A stretch of DNA of 64,000 bases, from positions 124,001 to 188,000 of the forward strand of contig NZ_RIAV01000003.1 of NCBI RefSeq assembly GCF_003852715.1, read 5' to 3'. The stretch is from Ectobacillus antri. GTDB taxonomy: Bacteria; Bacillota; Bacilli; Bacillales; Bacillaceae_G. Position numbers and translations under genes: made by a program. Shown here in pieces: positions 3,807 to 59,796 of the stretch; the stretch's first letter is position 1; each line of letters opens with the position of its first letter. The notes under the pieces are model-generated. The model saw nothing but the letters and a program-made list of their open reading frames with translations, was not told where the DNA came from and did not search any database.

Positions 3807-4730
3807 ATGGAAGGTGTATTACTTTTAAACAAACCCAAAGGAATGACATCTCACGATTGTGTCTTTAAGCTGCGAAAACTGTTAAAAGAAAAGCGCATTG
3901 GTCACACAGGTACACTTGATCCGGATGTGACAGGTGTGCTACCAATTTGTATTGGAAGAGCAACAAAAATTGCACAGTTTTTAACGAGCGAAGTAAAAAC
4001 ATACGAGGGTGAAGTAACAATTGGTTGGTCGACTACAACTGAAGATTCATCTGGAGAAATGGTAGAACAAAGGAATGTAGACCGCGTAATTACACGCTCA
4101 GAGATTCAGGCGGTATTGCAGGAGATGACAGGAACAATTAAACAAATGCCCCCGATGTTTTCAGCGGTAAAAGTAAATGGAAAAAAACTATATGAATATG
4201 CAAGACAAGGTATTGAAGTTGAACGTCCAGTACGCACCATTACTATTCATTCTTTTAATTTATTAGATGACCGTGATGTGTTCGAAGGAACGTCTATTTC
4301 TTTTCGTTTTCAAGTGACTTGCAGCAAAGGTACGTATGTACGCACGCTTGCGGTTATGATAGGCGAAAAGCTGGGTTATCCAGCACATATGTCTGATCTC
4401 ATACGTACTGCATCTGGTAAGTTTACGTTAGAGCAATGTGTGACATTGGAGCAAGTAGAAGAAGAGGTAAGACAGGGTAAGATGCAAGGGATGTTACAAT
4501 CTATTGATGAGGCGTTAGCTACATTTTCAAAATTGGTTGTAGATGAAGAAACAGCCGAGAAGGTAAAAAACGGTGGTTTTTTGCCGAGACCAAGCATTTT
4601 TATGGATAAATACATTATGATATTTAATAAGAATAACCAGTGCTTAGCTATTTACGAGCCGCATCCCACTAAAGTAAGCCTATTAAAGCCGACAAAAGTT
4701 CTTGTGAATAATCAAGAATTAAAGCTATAA
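3807..4730 (+). CDS. truB: tRNA pseudouridine(55) synthase TruB
   Basis: A 307-residue enzyme that converts U55 of tRNA T-loops to pseudouridine. Start ATG 3807 follows GAGGTGAAGG. The catalytic motif GHTGTLDPDVTGVLP is present with the expected nucleophile Asp at about residue 38, and GRATKIAQFL follows. The KVNGKKLYEYAR loop and the CSKGTYVRTL segment are also typical, and a C-terminal PUA-like tail completes the protein. The stop is followed by an intergenic stretch of nearly 400 bases filled by two copies of a structured repeat, which separates truB from ribF; in B. subtilis the two genes are closer. Confidence 0.97.
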   Translation: MEGVLLLNKPKGMTSHDCVFKLRKLLKEKRIGHTGTLDPDVTGVLPICIGRATKIAQFLTSEVKTYEGEVTIGWSTTTEDSSGEMVEQRNVDRVITRSEIQAVLQEMTGTIKQMPPMFSAVKVNGKKLYEYARQGIEVERPVRTITIHSFNLLDDRDVFEGTSISFRFQVTCSKGTYVRTLAVMIGEKLGYPAHMSDLIRTASGKFTLEQCVTLEQVEEEVRQGKMQGMLQSIDEALATFSKLVVDEETAEKVKNGGFLPRPSIFMDKYIMIFNKNNQCLAIYEPHPTKVSLLKPTKVLVNNQELKL

Positions 4731-4739
4731 TAAAACAAG

Positions 4740-4924
4740 TATATAAGTACAACTAGAAAAACCGACATTCTTTTTGGGTGGGAAAGAAGAACGGGCAATG
4801 TATGGTTGTGGTCAGGGCCTAAGAGATACGCGTATCAAGTAAGAACATATACACATAGCGAGACGTTCTAGCGCTGTGATTTTCTTTCTGTTTCTATGTC
4901 GAAAAAACTATGTAAACTTATATA
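4740..4924 (+). repeat. Copy A of a dispersed ~185-bp element with inverted ends
   Basis: This noncoding stretch begins TATATAAGT and ends ACTTATATA. It is strongly similar (most positions identical by eye) to the reverse complement of 59611-59796. Shared blocks include ACATTCTTTTT, AAGAAGAACGGGCAATGTAT, CCTAAGAGATACG, CAAGTAAGAACATA, GTTCT, GCGCTGTGATTT and CTTTCTGTTTCTAT. Inside, GATACGCGTATC is a perfect hairpin-forming palindrome, and in the other copy the same positions read GATACGCTTGTC, which keeps pairing through a G-U. The 7-mer GCTATAA occurs just outside both ends (4724 and 4925), a possible target duplication. It may be a mobile palindromic repeat or a repeated structured RNA. No ORF is supported in it. 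Confidence 0.85.
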
Positions 4925-5078
4925 GCTATAAGTAGAAAAGATAACATTCTTGAGATGACAAAGAAGAACGATTGATATGCAGTTGCAATGAGAACCTGCG
5001 AGAAGTAAACATCTAGCAAGGTTAGTAGTTCTGGCGCGTTCATTTTGTCGTTGTAGTTACGTTAGTAAGGCTTATACG
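4925..5078 (+). repeat. Copy B, a diverged partial copy of the same element
   Basis: Directly after copy A, the sequence AAGTAGAAAAGATAACATTCTT, then AAAGAAGAACG, GTTGCAATGAGAACCTGCGAGA, AAGTAAACAT and AGTTCTGGCGCG follow the same order as the blocks of the 185-bp element, with many substitutions and small gaps. The right end is not clear; the similarity fades after about 5050. The two copies stand head to tail and fill the truB-ribF gap. The GTTCTGGCGC block matches the copy near miaA better than its neighbour, so this copy is probably old and independent rather than a recent duplication of copy A. Confidence 0.6.
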
Positions 5079-5089: not shown

Positions 5090-5120
5090 AAAAGTTAGTT
5101 GTAAGAAGGTGGACTTGAGC

Positions 5121-6077
5121 GTGAAACTCATTCATTTAACGCATCCTCATCAAGTAAATAGAGATGAAGCAGAGCCGGTTGTTATGGCTTTAGGATATTT
5201 TGATGGTGTTCATCTCGGCCATCAAAAGGTTATTCACACTGCAAAGAACTTGGCAAGAGAGCGAAAACTGAAAAGTGCGGTAATGACTTTTCACCCGCAT
5301 CCGTCAGTGGTTCTTAGAAAGGCTACATCGCATGTGGAATATATTACACCATTGCAAGAAAAAGCACGTCTCTTGGCAGCTATGGGTATTGATGTTTTAT
5401 ATGTGGTGGAGTTTAGTAAGGAATTTGCGGCACTCTTGCCGCAGCAATTTGTGGATGACTATATTATTGGTTTACATGTTAAGCATGCGGTAGCAGGCTT
5501 TGACTTCACGTACGGCCGGTTAGGGAAAGGTACGATGGAAACCCTGCCGTTTCATTCGAGAGGTGAATTTACACACACAGTTGTGGAAAAGGTTGCCCTG
5601 CAGGAGCAAAAAGTAAGCTCTACATTGTTAAGGGGTATGATTCGAGAAGGACGTATGGAAGACATAGAACCTGTACTTGGGAGACGCTATACTGTAACCG
5701 GGACCGTTGTGCACGGCGATAAGCGGGGAAGACAAATTGGCTTTCCCACTGCTAATGTAGAGATCAAGGATTATATTTTACCGGCTACTGGTGTATATGC
5801 AGTAAAATTGGGCATACATGATAGATGGTACGACGGTGTATGCAATGTAGGGTATAAACCAACTTTTAACGAGGAGCGCAAGTTGTCTGTTGAAGTGCAT
5901 ATGTTTGATTTTGCAGCCGAAATTTACGGTGAACAAGTCGTAATCGAATGGCATCGTCGTATTAGAGCGGAACAAAAGTTTAATGGAGTCACAGAACTGG
6001 TAGCACAAATCCAACGTGATAAAGAGCAGGCACAACAATATTTTCATGATGGGCAAGGTCAGACTTGCTTTTTATAA
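5121..6077 (+). CDS. ribF: Bifunctional riboflavin kinase / FAD synthetase
   Basis: A 318-residue two-domain enzyme (RibC in B. subtilis) that phosphorylates riboflavin to FMN and adenylates FMN to FAD. I prefer GTG 5121 because AGAAGGTGGA stands 9 bases upstream and KLIHLTHPHQ then aligns with known N-termini; GTG 5109 is possible. The FAD synthetase domain has the nucleotidyltransferase motif GYFDGVHLGHQKVI, and the C-terminal kinase domain shows GRQIGFPTANVE and GVYAVKLG. No FMN riboswitch is present, as expected since this gene is usually constitutive in Bacillus. FMN and FAD made here serve the riboflavin-dependent enzymes of the cell. Confidence 0.97.
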   Translation: MKLIHLTHPHQVNRDEAEPVVMALGYFDGVHLGHQKVIHTAKNLARERKLKSAVMTFHPHPSVVLRKATSHVEYITPLQEKARLLAAMGIDVLYVVEFSKEFAALLPQQFVDDYIIGLHVKHAVAGFDFTYGRLGKGTMETLPFHSRGEFTHTVVEKVALQEQKVSSTLLRGMIREGRMEDIEPVLGRRYTVTGTVVHGDKRGRQIGFPTANVEIKDYILPATGVYAVKLGIHDRWYDGVCNVGYKPTFNEERKLSVEVHMFDFAAEIYGEQVVIEWHRRIRAEQKFNGVTELVAQIQRDKEQAQQYFHDGQGQTCFL

Positions 6078-22264: not shown

Positions 22265-22284
22265 TTACCTCAGAATGAATTAGA

Positions 22285-22426
22285 TACCTCATATAATCAT
22301 GGAGATATGGTCCAGAAGTTTCTACCTAGCAGCCTTAAATTGCTAGACTATGAGGAGAGCGGTGACGCACATTCCTGTGCTCCAGTTTTCTCATGACGTA
22401 GAGATACTGTTGCACAGGTTTTTTTT
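22285..22426 (+). promoter_or_regulatory. Purine riboswitch, guanine type, with terminator
   Basis: The aptamer spans P1 CCTCATA (22287-22293) to TATGAGG (22349-22355). It has the conserved ATATAATC and GATATGG of J1/2 and P2, GTTTCTACC in L2-J2/3, GCAGCC-TTAAAT-TGC in P3/L3, and GACTATG. The specificity base before the P1 strand is C (22348, GACTATG), as in guanine/hypoxanthine binders; adenine binders have T. An expression platform follows: CCTGTGC (22374) to GCACAGG with a T8 run ending at 22426. The 3' P1 strand can alternatively pair with CTCAT in the terminator, so ligand should turn the operon off. A weak extra promoter may lie at 22499-22525. Confidence 0.93.
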
Positions 22427-23416: not shown

Positions 23417-24487
23417 ATGAAGAAAAAAGCAGGTCTTTTATTATCCTTAACATTGGCAGCAAGCACGGTATTAGGTGCTTGCGGAACAGACAAGGCAGAA
23501 GAAAAAGGCGGCGACAAAAAAGCGTCTAACTTTAAAGTAGGTATGGTTACTGATACTGGCGGTGTTAATGACAAATCGTTTAACCAATCAGCTTGGGAAG
23601 GTTTAACTAAATTTGGTAAAGAGAACGGCTTGAAAGAAAACGAAGGCTATCGTTACTTGCAGTCCGAAAAAGAATCTGACTACTTGAACAATCTAAACAA
23701 ATTTAGCGAAGCAAAATTTAACCTCACTTTTGGTATCGGCTTTTTAATGGCAGATGCAATTGGTAAGGCTGCTGATCAAGCGAAAGATAGTCAGTTTGCA
23801 ATCGTTGATATGGTTGTAGACAAGCCAAACGTGACAAGCATCGTATTCAAAGAGAACGAAGGTTCTTTCCTTGTAGGCGCGGTAGCTGCTATGACGACAA
23901 AGTCCAATAAAATTGGCTTTATCGGCGGCGTAGAGAGCGATTTGATTAAAAAGTTCCAATACGGCTTCATCGCGGGTGCAAAAGCAGTAAATCCGAATAT
24001 TGAGGTTGTATCTCAATATGCAGGTGATTTTAACAACATTGCAAAAGGTACACAATTGGCTTCTACAATGTATGGACAAGGTGTTGATGTAATCTACCAT
24101 GCTGCGGGCGGTACAGGAAACGGTGTGTTCACTGAAGCGAAAAACCGCAAGAAAAAAGGCGAGAAGGTATGGGTAATCGGTGTTGACCGTGACCAGCATC
24201 AAGAAGGTATGCCTGAAAATGTTACATTAACTTCCATGGTTAAACGTGTAGACGTTGCAGTTGAAGAGGTTGCTAAAGAAGCAAAAGAAGGTACGCTTAA
24301 AGGCGGCGCTATTAAAGAATTTGGTTTAAAAGACAAAGGTATTGATATTGCAGAAACAACTGAAAATGTGAGCAAAGAAGCATTGGCTAAAGTAGAAGAG
24401 TTCAAAAAGCAAATCCTTGAAGGTAATTTAAAAGTTCCTGCAACTGAAGCAGAATATAAAACATATGAAGCTTCTCTGAAAAAATAG
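23417..24487 (+). CDS. BMP-family nucleoside-binding lipoprotein
   Basis: A 356-residue secreted solute-binding lipoprotein. ATG 23417 follows GGAGGGG. A type II signal peptide is visible: KKKAGLLLSLTLAASTVLGAC, with the lipobox LGAC and the lipid-modified Cys at about residue 21. The mature part matches the BMP/Med family: VGMVTDTGGVNDKSFNQSAWEG, TFGIGFLMADAI, and VIGVDRDQHQEGMPENV. Relatives such as NupN (YufN) of B. subtilis and PnrA bind purine nucleosides. With the guanine riboswitch upstream, guanosine or a related purine nucleoside is the likely ligand; specificity is inferred. Confidence 0.92.
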   Translation: MKKKAGLLLSLTLAASTVLGACGTDKAEEKGGDKKASNFKVGMVTDTGGVNDKSFNQSAWEGLTKFGKENGLKENEGYRYLQSEKESDYLNNLNKFSEAKFNLTFGIGFLMADAIGKAADQAKDSQFAIVDMVVDKPNVTSIVFKENEGSFLVGAVAAMTTKSNKIGFIGGVESDLIKKFQYGFIAGAKAVNPNIEVVSQYAGDFNNIAKGTQLASTMYGQGVDVIYHAAGGTGNGVFTEAKNRKKKGEKVWVIGVDRDQHQEGMPENVTLTSMVKRVDVAVEEVAKEAKEGTLKGGAIKEFGLKDKGIDIAETTENVSKEALAKVEEFKKQILEGNLKVPATEAEYKTYEASLKK

Positions 24488-24502
24488 GACACAGAGGAAT
24501 AG

Positions 24503-24531
24503 CAAAGGTTAGTTCTTGGAACTAACCTTTG
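24503..24531 (+). other. 13-bp perfect hairpin between binding protein and ATPase genes
   Basis: CAAAGGTTAGTTC (24503-24515), loop TTG, GAACTAACCTTTG (24519-24531). No T run follows (TATGTATAG). In such operons a hairpin of this kind often stabilises the upstream binding-protein mRNA or partly terminates transcription, giving more binding protein than transporter. Confidence 0.7.
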
Positions 24532-24551
24532 TATGTATAGGGGGTTAATTC

Positions 24552-26084
24552 ATGGAATATGTAATCGAGATGAACCATATTACAAAGGTTTTCCCTGGCA
24601 TCAAAGCAAATGACGATATTACCCTACAAGTAAAGAAGGGTGAAATCCATGCATTGCTTGGGGAAAACGGTGCCGGAAAATCGACACTAATGAACATCCT
24701 TTTCGGTTTATACCAGCCGGAAGAGGGTGAAATCAAAATTAAAGGTCAAGCTGTTAAAATTACAAGTCCTAATGTTGCAAATGATTTAGGAATCGGTATG
24801 GTGCATCAGCACTTTATGCTGGTACACAATTTTACTGTTACAGAAAATATTATTTTAGGAAATGAGCCGAAAAAGGGCGGCAAAATTAACATTGAAGACG
24901 CGGCAGCTGAAATTAAGAAACTGTCTGAGCAATATGGACTGGCGGTAGATCCATATGCAAAAATTGAGGATATTTCTGTAGGGATGCAACAACGTGTTGA
25001 AATTTTGAAAACATTGTACCGCGGCGCTGAAATCTTAATTTTCGATGAACCAACAGCTGTATTGACACCTCAAGAGATCCATGAGCTTATGAACATTATG
25101 AAGCGTCTTGTACAAGAAGGTAAGTCCATTGTTCTCATCACACATAAATTAAAAGAAATCATGGAAGTGTGTGATCGTTGTACAATTATTCGTAAAGGTA
25201 AAGGTATTGGAACAGTTGAGATTCAGAACTCTAGTGAGCAGGAATTAGCAGAATTAATGGTAGGAAGAGAAGTTAATTTTAAGACTGAAAAGTCAGACGC
25301 CCAACCACAACAGGATGTATTAAAAATTTCTAATTTGGTTGTACATGATGCCCGCAATTTACCTGCTGTAAAAGGCCTTGACTTAACTGTTCGTGCAGGA
25401 GAAATTGTCGGAGTTGCAGGGGTAGATGGTAACGGTCAAAGTGAACTGATTGAAGCAATCACAGGGTTACGAAAAGTTGAGTCAGGTTCTATTACATTAA
25501 ATCAAAAAGATGTTACGAACTGGCCTACGCGCCGTATTACAGAAGAAGGGGTCGGACATATTCCCCAGGACCGCCATAAGCATGGATTGGTTCTAGACTT
25601 TTCTATTGGCGATAATATGGTGCTTCAAACCTATTATAAAGAACCAATTTCTAGAAATGGTATATTAAATTTCGGTAAAGTATACGAAAAAGCAAAAGCA
25701 TTAATTGAGCAATTTGATGTGCGCACACCAAGTGAACATACGCCTGCACGTGCGCTATCCGGTGGAAACCAGCAAAAAGCGATTATCGCTCGCGAAGTGG
25801 ACCGTAATCCGGATTTGTTAATTGCAGCACAACCTACACGTGGTCTGGATGTAGGCGCAATCGAGTTTATTCATAAAAAGCTTGTTGAGCAACGTGATAA
25901 AGGAAAGGCGGTTTTACTTTTATCACTTGAATTGGATGAAATTTTAAATGTAAGTGATCGTATTGCTGTTATTTACGAAGGGCGCATTGTAGGTATTGTG
26001 AATGCAAAAGAAACAAACGAGCAAGAGTTAGGCCTGTTGATGGCGGGCGGAACGCAAGGGGAGAAGGTGGAGAACCATGCATAA
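24552..26084 (+). CDS. Nucleoside ABC importer, duplicated ATPase
   Basis: A 510-residue ATPase of the simple-sugar/nucleoside (RbsA/NupO-like) type with two nucleotide-binding domains. ATG 24552 follows TAGGGGGT. Domain 1 has Walker A GENGAGKST, the signature SVGMQQRVEILK and Walker B ILIFDEPTAVLTP. Domain 2 has GVDGNGQSELIE in place of the usual Walker A, the signature LSGGNQQKAIIARE and the variant end AAQPTRGLDVGAIE. This asymmetry is normal for the group. It energises the two permeases that follow; the stop overlaps the first permease by 8 bases. Confidence 0.94.
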   Translation: MEYVIEMNHITKVFPGIKANDDITLQVKKGEIHALLGENGAGKSTLMNILFGLYQPEEGEIKIKGQAVKITSPNVANDLGIGMVHQHFMLVHNFTVTENIILGNEPKKGGKINIEDAAAEIKKLSEQYGLAVDPYAKIEDISVGMQQRVEILKTLYRGAEILIFDEPTAVLTPQEIHELMNIMKRLVQEGKSIVLITHKLKEIMEVCDRCTIIRKGKGIGTVEIQNSSEQELAELMVGREVNFKTEKSDAQPQQDVLKISNLVVHDARNLPAVKGLDLTVRAGEIVGVAGVDGNGQSELIEAITGLRKVESGSITLNQKDVTNWPTRRITEEGVGHIPQDRHKHGLVLDFSIGDNMVLQTYYKEPISRNGILNFGKVYEKAKALIEQFDVRTPSEHTPARALSGGNQQKAIIAREVDRNPDLLIAAQPTRGLDVGAIEFIHKKLVEQRDKGKAVLLLSLELDEILNVSDRIAVIYEGRIVGIVNAKETNEQELGLLMAGGTQGEKVENHA

Positions 26085-27135
26085 AGGATTTTTATCATCA
26101 CGCACAATTAATATATTGGTTCCTGTATTATCAGCATTATTTGGTCTTCTAATGGGAGCAATTGTTATGCTTGTGAGTGGCTATGACCCAGTTGTAGGAT
26201 ATACGGCCCTTATTGAAGGTATGTTCGGTAACCCACGTGCTGTCGGAGAAACAATTCGTACGATGCTACCTCTTGTGTTAGCCGGTTTGTCTGTTGCATT
26301 TGCTTTCCGTACGGGGTTATTTAATATTGGAGTAGAAGGTCAATTGCTTGTTGGTTGGCTTGCTGCAGTATGGGTTGGTTATGCTTTTGAACTACCGAAA
26401 GTTATTCATTTACCATTGTCTATCCTAGTTGCTGCAGTAGCCGGAGGATTGTGGGGTTTTGTTCCTGGTTACTTAAAAGGCAAGTTTAAAGTAAATGAAG
26501 TTATTGTAACGATTATGATGAACTACGTAGCATTGTATGTGACGTATGACTTAATTAAACGTTTCCTACATGCTGGAAATGAAAAAACATATGATGTAAA
26601 AGCAAGTGCTTCTCTTGCATCACCATGGTTATCATCCATTACAGATGGCTCTCGCTTACACTGGGGAATTATCATCGTAGCGCTTGCTGCAATTGTGATG
26701 TGGTTTTTATTAGACCGTACGACTATGGGGTATGAATTAAAAGCAGTAGGATACAATCAGCATGCTTCTCATTATGCTGGTATGCAAGTGTCTCGTAACG
26801 TTATTCTTTCTATGACAATTGCTGGTGCGTTCGCCGGAATTGCCGGTTCTATGGAAGCTTTAGGTACATTCCAGTACATGACGGCAATGACAGCCTTTAC
26901 GGGGGTTGGATTTGACGGAATTGCGGTTGCACTTCTTGGCATGAACAATCCATTCGGTATTATTTTATCAGCATTATTATTCGGTGGATTAAAGAGCGCA
27001 GCTCCACAAATGAACTTCACAGCAAACGTGCCGTCTGAACTAATCAACGTTATTGTTGCGTGTATTATTTTCTTTGTCGCGTGTAGCTACGTAATTCGTT
27101 GGGCTTTAAATCGCTTTAGCAAGGAGGGCAAATAA
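26077..27135 (+). CDS. Nucleoside ABC importer permease, NupP-like
   Basis: A 352-residue integral membrane protein of the branched-chain/BPD_transp_2 family, ATG 26077 overlapping the ATPase stop. About nine hydrophobic segments are apparent, starting with ILVPVLSALFGLLMGAIVMLV. The family loop TGLFNIGVEGQLLVG lies near residue 88 and the ABC-contacting region near AGAFAGIAGSMEALG. It pairs with the following permease to form the channel. The next gene starts immediately after its stop, so the two are translated together. Equivalent to NupP (YufP). Confidence 0.92.
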   Translation: MHKGFLSSRTINILVPVLSALFGLLMGAIVMLVSGYDPVVGYTALIEGMFGNPRAVGETIRTMLPLVLAGLSVAFAFRTGLFNIGVEGQLLVGWLAAVWVGYAFELPKVIHLPLSILVAAVAGGLWGFVPGYLKGKFKVNEVIVTIMMNYVALYVTYDLIKRFLHAGNEKTYDVKASASLASPWLSSITDGSRLHWGIIIVALAAIVMWFLLDRTTMGYELKAVGYNQHASHYAGMQVSRNVILSMTIAGAFAGIAGSMEALGTFQYMTAMTAFTGVGFDGIAVALLGMNNPFGIILSALLFGGLKSAAPQMNFTANVPSELINVIVACIIFFVACSYVIRWALNRFSKEGK

Positions 27136-28095
27136 ATGAGCTTCTTGGATATTCTCGCTATTATCATACAAGGAACGTTGTATACAGCAGCCCCTCTTAT
27201 TTTCACGGCTTTAGGCGGTGTATTTAGTGAAAGATCCGGTGTTGTAAATATTGCACTGGAAGGTTTAATGCTGTTTGGTGCGTTTATTGGGATTGTAACA
27301 ACATTATTAATGTCTGATACGTGGGGCGCTGCTACGCCTTGGATTTCACTTGTAATTGCGGCTGTGGGTTGTGGTTTGTTTGCATTGCTTCATGCAGTTG
27401 CTTCTATTACTTTTAAAGCTGATCAAGTTGTTAGTGGCGTGGCAATTAACTTCTTGGCGCTTGGATTAACAGTATTTGCTATTAAAAAGATATTTGGAAA
27501 AGGACAAACGGACGTAATTCAATATCGTGTTGATAAAATGGATATACCTGTTCTTTCTGATATTCCGGTAATTGGAAAGTTGTTCTTTACGTCAATTCCA
27601 TTAACATCATATATTGCCATTGCTATGGTATTTTTAGTATGGTATATCATCTATAAAACGCCATTTGGTCTACGTCTTCGTGCGGTGGGAGAGCATCCGA
27701 TGGCGGCAGATACAATGGGTATCAACGTATATAAAATGCGTTACACTGCCGTTGTTATTTCTGGTATGTTTGCGGGTCTTGGTGGTGCAGTGTTCGCAAC
27801 ATCTATTTCTAACAACTTTTCAGGTGGTACAATTGCAGGCCAAGGCTTCCTTGCGCTGGCAGCTATGATTTTTGGTAAATGGCATCCGATTGGTGCACTC
27901 GGAGCAGCATTGTTCTTCGGGTTTGCACAGTCTCTGGGAGTAACAGGTGGTACACTGCCACTGCTACAAAATATTCCACCAGTAATTTTAATTATTCTTC
28001 CCTATGTGTTAACCATTTTTGCGCTGGTAGGTTTTGTAGGACGCTCTGAAGCTCCTAAAGCATTAGGTGCACCGTACGAAAAAGGAAAACGCTAA
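27136..28095 (+). CDS. Nucleoside ABC importer permease, NupQ-like
   Basis: A 319-residue partner permease of the same family, ATG 27136 directly after the previous stop with AAGGAGGGC inside the upstream gene. The motif RSGVVNIALEGLMLFGA matches the permease loop, and PFGLRLRAVGEHPMAADTMGI the coupling helix segment. Around eight membrane helices are likely. It completes a binding protein, ATPase, two-permease importer (NupNOPQ-like) that brings purine nucleosides into the cell. A terminator follows. Confidence 0.92.
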   Translation: MSFLDILAIIIQGTLYTAAPLIFTALGGVFSERSGVVNIALEGLMLFGAFIGIVTTLLMSDTWGAATPWISLVIAAVGCGLFALLHAVASITFKADQVVSGVAINFLALGLTVFAIKKIFGKGQTDVIQYRVDKMDIPVLSDIPVIGKLFFTSIPLTSYIAIAMVFLVWYIIYKTPFGLRLRAVGEHPMAADTMGINVYKMRYTAVVISGMFAGLGGAVFATSISNNFSGGTIAGQGFLALAAMIFGKWHPIGALGAALFFGFAQSLGVTGGTLPLLQNIPPVILIILPYVLTIFALVGFVGRSEAPKALGAPYEKGKR

Positions 28096-59515: not shown

Positions 59516-59610
59516 ACAATCCCTCCTTTTTTATCAAGCTATGTACAATATGGACAAACTATGTCAAATAAGCTACAATTTTATGCATGCAAGGTTGCAA
59601 TTTCTATTTT

Positions 59611-59796
59611 ATATAAGTCTACATAGCTTTTTCGATATAGAAACAGAAAGCAAATCACAGCGCCAGAACACCTCGATACATGTGTATGTTCTTACTTGAC
59701 AAGCGTATCTCTTAGGTCCTGACCGCAACTATACATTGCCCGTTCTTCTTTTCCACCCAAAAAAAGAATGTTGTTTTTTCTAGTCGTACTTATATA
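59611..59796 (-). repeat. Copy C of the dispersed ~185-bp element (inverted)
   Basis: The reverse complement begins TATATAAGTACGACTAG and ends ACTTATAT, matching copy A (4740-4924) over the full length in the same block order: ACATTCTTTTTTT, AGAAGAACGGGCAATGTAT, GGTCAGG, CCTAAGAGATACG, CAAGTAAGAACATA, GTTCTGGCGCTGTGATTTGCTTTC and TTTCTATATCGAAAAA. It lies between the small minus-strand gene and miaA. The surrounding 59516-60007 region otherwise shows no gene. No clear target duplication is visible here. Confidence 0.85.

Follow-up and report, generated by a model that had tools for sequence, protein, structure and literature searches.

The insertion sequence IS630-Spn1 has been proposed to mobilise RUP, a repeat of S. 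pneumoniae, at TA sites (PMC2229807), and the mobility of the bcr repeats of the Bacillus cereus group has been linked to a TTTAT motif (PMC6542083). By analogy, RUP is the closest precedent for the element described here, found in Ectobacillus antri and two of its congeners. This is very probably a non-autonomous MITE of the IS630 type, moved in trans by an IS630-family transposase with matching ends. Its exact ends, its target and the lineage of its parent transposon can now be given.

The window (the whole stretch of 64,000 nucleotides of E. antri DNA that was analysed, with a G+C content of 39%) comes from a genome of 3.49 Mb, here called G000. It holds two full-length copies of the element, both intergenic and in opposite orientation, which are 88% identical and have the same ends, TATATAAGT and ACTTATATA. 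This confirms the first-pass annotation of this DNA, which had described two distant full-length copies with conserved ends and had proposed a genome-wide search for more. BLASTN with copy 1 against its own genome does find more, well beyond what chance would give: there are 42 matches at 40 places (E < 1e-27), the majority of them full length, and the full-length matches have identities of 76-95%. The sample of the genus consisted of four species (G000, G001, G002 and G003). A profile was built from 39 of the G000 copies (model R1, of sequence only, since RNAalifold gave no consensus structure), and it has 119 matches to the approximately 188-bp element in G000 at E <= 1. At E <= 0.1 it has 91 matches in G002 and 97 in G003, and there are none in G001. 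Among the 60 relatives searched, matches are restricted to genomes of the same genus, and the element was not detected in 15 genomes from other genera of the family. Plasmid records searched with two subfamilies gave no match to the MITE. A pattern scan of the genome collection gave 21 single matches, mostly in unrelated organisms, where about 30 are expected by chance (an estimate, for a 17-base-equivalent pattern). No description of the family was found in the open-access literature; the family is new, and belongs to a well-known kind.

The family consensus runs from CTATATAAGTACAACTAGAAAAACCGACAT to ATGTCGAAAAAACTATGTAGACTTATATAG and is 188 bp long, including the two outermost bases, which are less conserved; its conserved part is TATATAAGT...ACTTATATA. 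The terminal inverted repeats consist of 9-10 near-perfect base pairs inside an imperfect repeat of about 30 bp. The length is below the limit of about 300 bp for a bacterial MITE, there are 40 clear dispersed copies, and the element has no transposase. The consensus-like copy L002 contains no convincing ORF of its own, which bears out what had been said of the two copies in the window. The features of the window are listed in Table 1. A direct repeat at 4919-4951 is further evidence for the decayed copy downstream of copy 1, in a region that is common to G002.

Table 1. Features of the element in the window, with places in the genome where well-preserved copies adjoin older ones.
Feature	Position	Strand	Evidence or remark
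MITE copy 1, full length, including the TA duplications 4740-4741 and 4923-4924	4740..4924	+	BLASTN family, profile
MITE copy 1, element proper	4742-4922	+	
Left terminal inverted repeat of copy 1: TATATAAGT, 13 bases, CCGACAT (CGACAT at 4763-4768)	4740..4769	+	alignment; IS630 ends with the same layout
Right terminal inverted repeat of copy 1: ATGTCG (4896-4901), A-rich stretch, ACTTATATA (4916-4924)	4895..4924	+	alignment; IS 3' ends ATGTCGAAAAATTAAATCACTTATATATA
Genes on either side of copy 1	truB 3807-4730; ribF 5109-6077		copy 1 lies between them
Decayed older family copy, directly downstream of copy 1	4927..5064	+	profile, E 4.2e-7 at C23:128927-129064
MITE copy 2, full length, including the TA duplications at both ends	59610..59796	-	BLASTN; exact empty site in G002
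Places where well-preserved copies abut older ones	window 4927-5064; C73:13744; C4:34069; C34:164651; C1:345218; C1:155266; C1:34829		

Both G002 and G003 hold subfamilies of their own. In G003 there is a subfamily of about 195-200 bp that keeps the ends and the CGACAT/ATGTCG inner repeat but has a largely different core, and a second subfamily that starts TATATACAAGTGAATAA, nearly identical to the 5' end of the insertion sequence described below. The cores thus differ between G000/G002, G003a and G003b, while the ends are unchanged. Some of the G003 copies lie at contig ends (L122 and L125, on C48 and C65) and copies there are up to 99% alike, so that recent amplification in this species is likely, and its assembly seems to be broken at copies of the MITE.

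G002 is about 92% identical to G000 where the two were compared, and sites that are empty in G002 can therefore be read directly, a check that had been proposed earlier. At L002, G000 has CTTC[TA]TATAAGT...ACTTATA[TA]GTTATAAC where G002 has CTTT[TA]GTTATAAC. At L020, CTAC[TA]...[TA]CATATCGCC in G000 corresponds to CTAC[TA]CATGTCGCC in G002, and at L031 the two genomes likewise differ by the element plus TA. When copy 2 of the window is removed and one TA is kept, the sequence aligns without a step through the G002 site TATC[TA]AAA. Because all four sites differ from G002 by the element and a TA, the target duplication is TA only. The element is also absent from G002 at L009, L018 and L022, where the flanks are less clean. 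Such insertions can serve as presence/absence markers between close species. The flanks show a preference for C[TA]G, with C at -1 in 14 of 23 copies and G at +1 in 15 of 23; this is partly compatible with an alternative explanation, namely conserved outer bases of the element itself.

The first-pass annotation had taken GCTATAA, which stands outside both ends of copy 1, as a possible target duplication. The upstream instance proves to be the conserved end of truB, present also at the element-free site of G003, and the downstream instance opens the decayed copy that extends over about 4927-5064. What is actually duplicated is TA. Copy 1 has an orthologue in G002 at 1118212-1118397, and the truB-ribF gap of G003 lacks the element, so copy 1 is an older insertion.

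It had also been asked whether the repeat might belong to the bcr families of the B. cereus group, which it resembles in size, copy number and intergenic placement (PMC6542083). However, bcr mobility goes with a TTTAT motif (PMC6542083). The flanks, ends and empty sites read here have instead TA duplications and TATATAAGT ends, with no TTTAT motif at the ends of the MITE; the lack of matches in the 15 genomes from other genera of the family also speaks against this. On these published features the assignment fails, and that the element is a bcr-type repeat is hardly credible.

The copies lie in intergenic DNA: simple ORF calling around 40 of them gave no clear case of a long gene being interrupted. 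An older copy is found within 40 bp of 7 of the 41 well-preserved copies, where 0.3 such cases are expected for uniform placement, or about 2 if 15% of the DNA is assumed to be intergenic. Since these copies adjoin older ones, the TA-rich ends of the MITE may be favoured targets, leading to nested insertion. At L012 (1497-1685), compared with L165, the G002 counterpart has only an older, partial-looking copy, and the G000 copy has the 5' end of the old copy. This looks as if an element had inserted into the older copy and the two had then recombined or undergone conversion. We also note that the window contains a purine riboswitch (RF00167, 78 bits, 22269-22370), upstream of apparent genes for a BMP-family lipoprotein and an ABC transporter (23417-28095), which look like an ordinary nucleoside uptake operon.

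A transposase with matching ends is found within the genus. In all four genus genomes a transposase locus scores above the PF13358 (DDE_3) cut-off. With NCBIfam NF033545 (IS630 family), the ORF B parts of G002 and G001 exceed the 100-bit cut-off, and the ORF A parts score 98.2 and 95.6, just under it. The insertion sequence of G002 has two ORFs in 1180 bp, the second of which contains an in-frame TAG; the insertion sequence starts with TATATATAAGTGAATAATTTTTTC and ends with ATGTCGAAAAATTAAATCACTTATATATA. The transposase loci of G002 and G003 share the 3' end ATGTCGAAAA...TTATATATA, the 5' end in G002 being TATATATAAGTGAATAA, and two G003 fragments have the ends ATGTCGAAAAACTAAATCACTTATATATA and ATGTCGAAAAGACAAGTCAGTTATATATA. 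These copies with matching ends in G002 and G003 are decayed. G001 has an insertion sequence with two long ORFs and also with TATATAAGT ends, yet no MITE was detected in that genome. Outside the genus, plasmid NZ_CP040366.1 of Priestia flexa (L242) carries an annotated IS630 with two intact-looking ORFs and the end TATATAAGTTTGATTTTAATTTCCGACGTG, with the same spacing as the MITE. Its ends read TATATAAGT-13 bases-CCGACGT and TATATAAGT-13 bases-CCGGCAT, which is the layout of the MITE. The element is assigned to the IS630 type because it duplicates TA and because its ends are common to the IS630 elements of the congeners and of the Priestia plasmid. As a separate observation, one G003 copy (L239, 1244-1441) lies beside the end of a truncated IS630 transposase gene, which recalls the insertions of RUP into IS elements.

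The shared ends would also fit internally deleted IS630 insertion sequences, in which case the family would not be a separate MITE lineage with its own core. However, apart from its ends the element has no similarity to the insertion sequence; in G002 the similarity is limited to the last 30 bp or so, and the transposase gene is not the source of the interior. About 100 copies have one inside sequence in common. Internal deletion is thus a highly improbable origin.

In E. antri itself, the single PF13358 match is decayed: its 5' end has diverged (TATATATAACTGACTCG), and a 3' end can no longer be recognised. No intact transposase with ends of the MITE type was found in this assembly of 74 contigs, from which a copy could be missing, and no pairs of perfect CTATATAAGT ends lie 0.5-3 kb apart flanking a transposase. 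An intact transposase in the same genome is usual for young MITE families, and is not required of old ones. We infer the role of the transposase, rather than observe it, because the G000 copy is broken and retains only a diverged 5' end. In the mechanism that we propose from these sequences, the IS630-family transposase would come, in trans, from an insertion sequence that has two ORFs and shares the ends of the MITE. This transposase would recognise the TATATAAGT...CCGACAT terminal repeats and would insert the element at TA dinucleotides, with a preference for C[TA]G and duplication of the TA. After insertion, copies would decay with no detectable constraint on RNA pairing. This one mechanism would account for about 100 intergenic repeats per species in three species of one genus.

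The first-pass annotation had pointed to a central palindrome, GATACGCGTATC, held by G-U pairing in the other copy, as a hint of selection on RNA structure. In fact, only two of the 39 aligned copies carry GATACGCGTATC; the family consensus in this region is GATACGCGTGTC, and its bases pair elsewhere in the predicted fold. More generally, the element could act as RNA, either as a structured noncoding RNA or as a regulatory element, that was secondarily dispersed and is retained for its fold. The consensus does fold better than shuffled sequences (z -2.2 for the top strand and -3.2 for the bottom), and its top strand is paired along its whole length in a long closed foldback, which is partly owed to the element's own terminal repeats. 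The terminal stem closes all three subfamily consensuses, and with the consensus fold imposed the proportion of paired cells is 88.1%, against 87.5% in shuffles. However, RNAalifold on 39 copies gives no consensus structure, and covariation is weak: changes on both sides of a pair number 17 against 12.3 in shuffles for all helices, and 11 against 8.9 for the core. A strand-asymmetry test was used as well, in which single changes in Watson-Crick pairs were counted as events on a tree. Selection on RNA should give more G.U than A.C, and without it the two should be equal by DNA strand symmetry. The core stems of G000 and G002 have 55 G.U against 47 A.C events on the top strand (p 0.49), and G003 has 20 against 24 (p 0.65), so that the test is flat. 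Orientation relative to neighbouring genes is random (13/9/8/7), and an Rfam search gave no match to the element, with nothing near the gathering score. Retention for an RNA fold is therefore very unlikely, and the hint drawn from two copies, though persuasive, fails once the family is assembled. The earlier suggestion of a mobile palindromic element stands, in the form of an IS630-type MITE; that of a new noncoding RNA is not supported.

For the IS630-type MITE, then, no constraint on RNA can be detected in the decay of inserted copies, although the few master copies may be under one. The core of about 125 bp differs between species while the ends are constant and a closed foldback is kept. 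It may on this account be under selection, either to be mobilised efficiently or because its transcript affects mRNAs nearby, as has been proposed for NEMIS, although we regard this as unlikely. Processing of NEMIS transcripts by RNase III has been described; the present element is not known to be processed in this way.

Among known systems, the P. flexa insertion sequence (NZ_CP040366.1) has the same end layout of TATATAAGT, 13 bases and CCGACGT, and differs in having a two-ORF transposase, whose ORFs both look intact; this insertion sequence represents the type of parent, not the MITE itself. The bcr1 repeat is similar in size, copy number and presence/absence differences between related genomes, but is set apart by its published description, having the TTTAT motif (PMC6542083) and no TA duplication with TATATAAGT repeats. 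The Correia or NEMIS elements of Neisseria are likened to the MITE by description: they are 100-200 bp long, with terminal inverted repeats, TA termini and predicted folded transcripts (PMC2229807). RUP, again likened by description, has about 100 intergenic copies, IS630-like terminal repeats, insertion at TA and no transposase of its own (PMC2229807), and differs in its length of 107 bp and in its genus. Besides RUP, the element described here is another bacterial MITE for which a link to an IS630 element is well supported.
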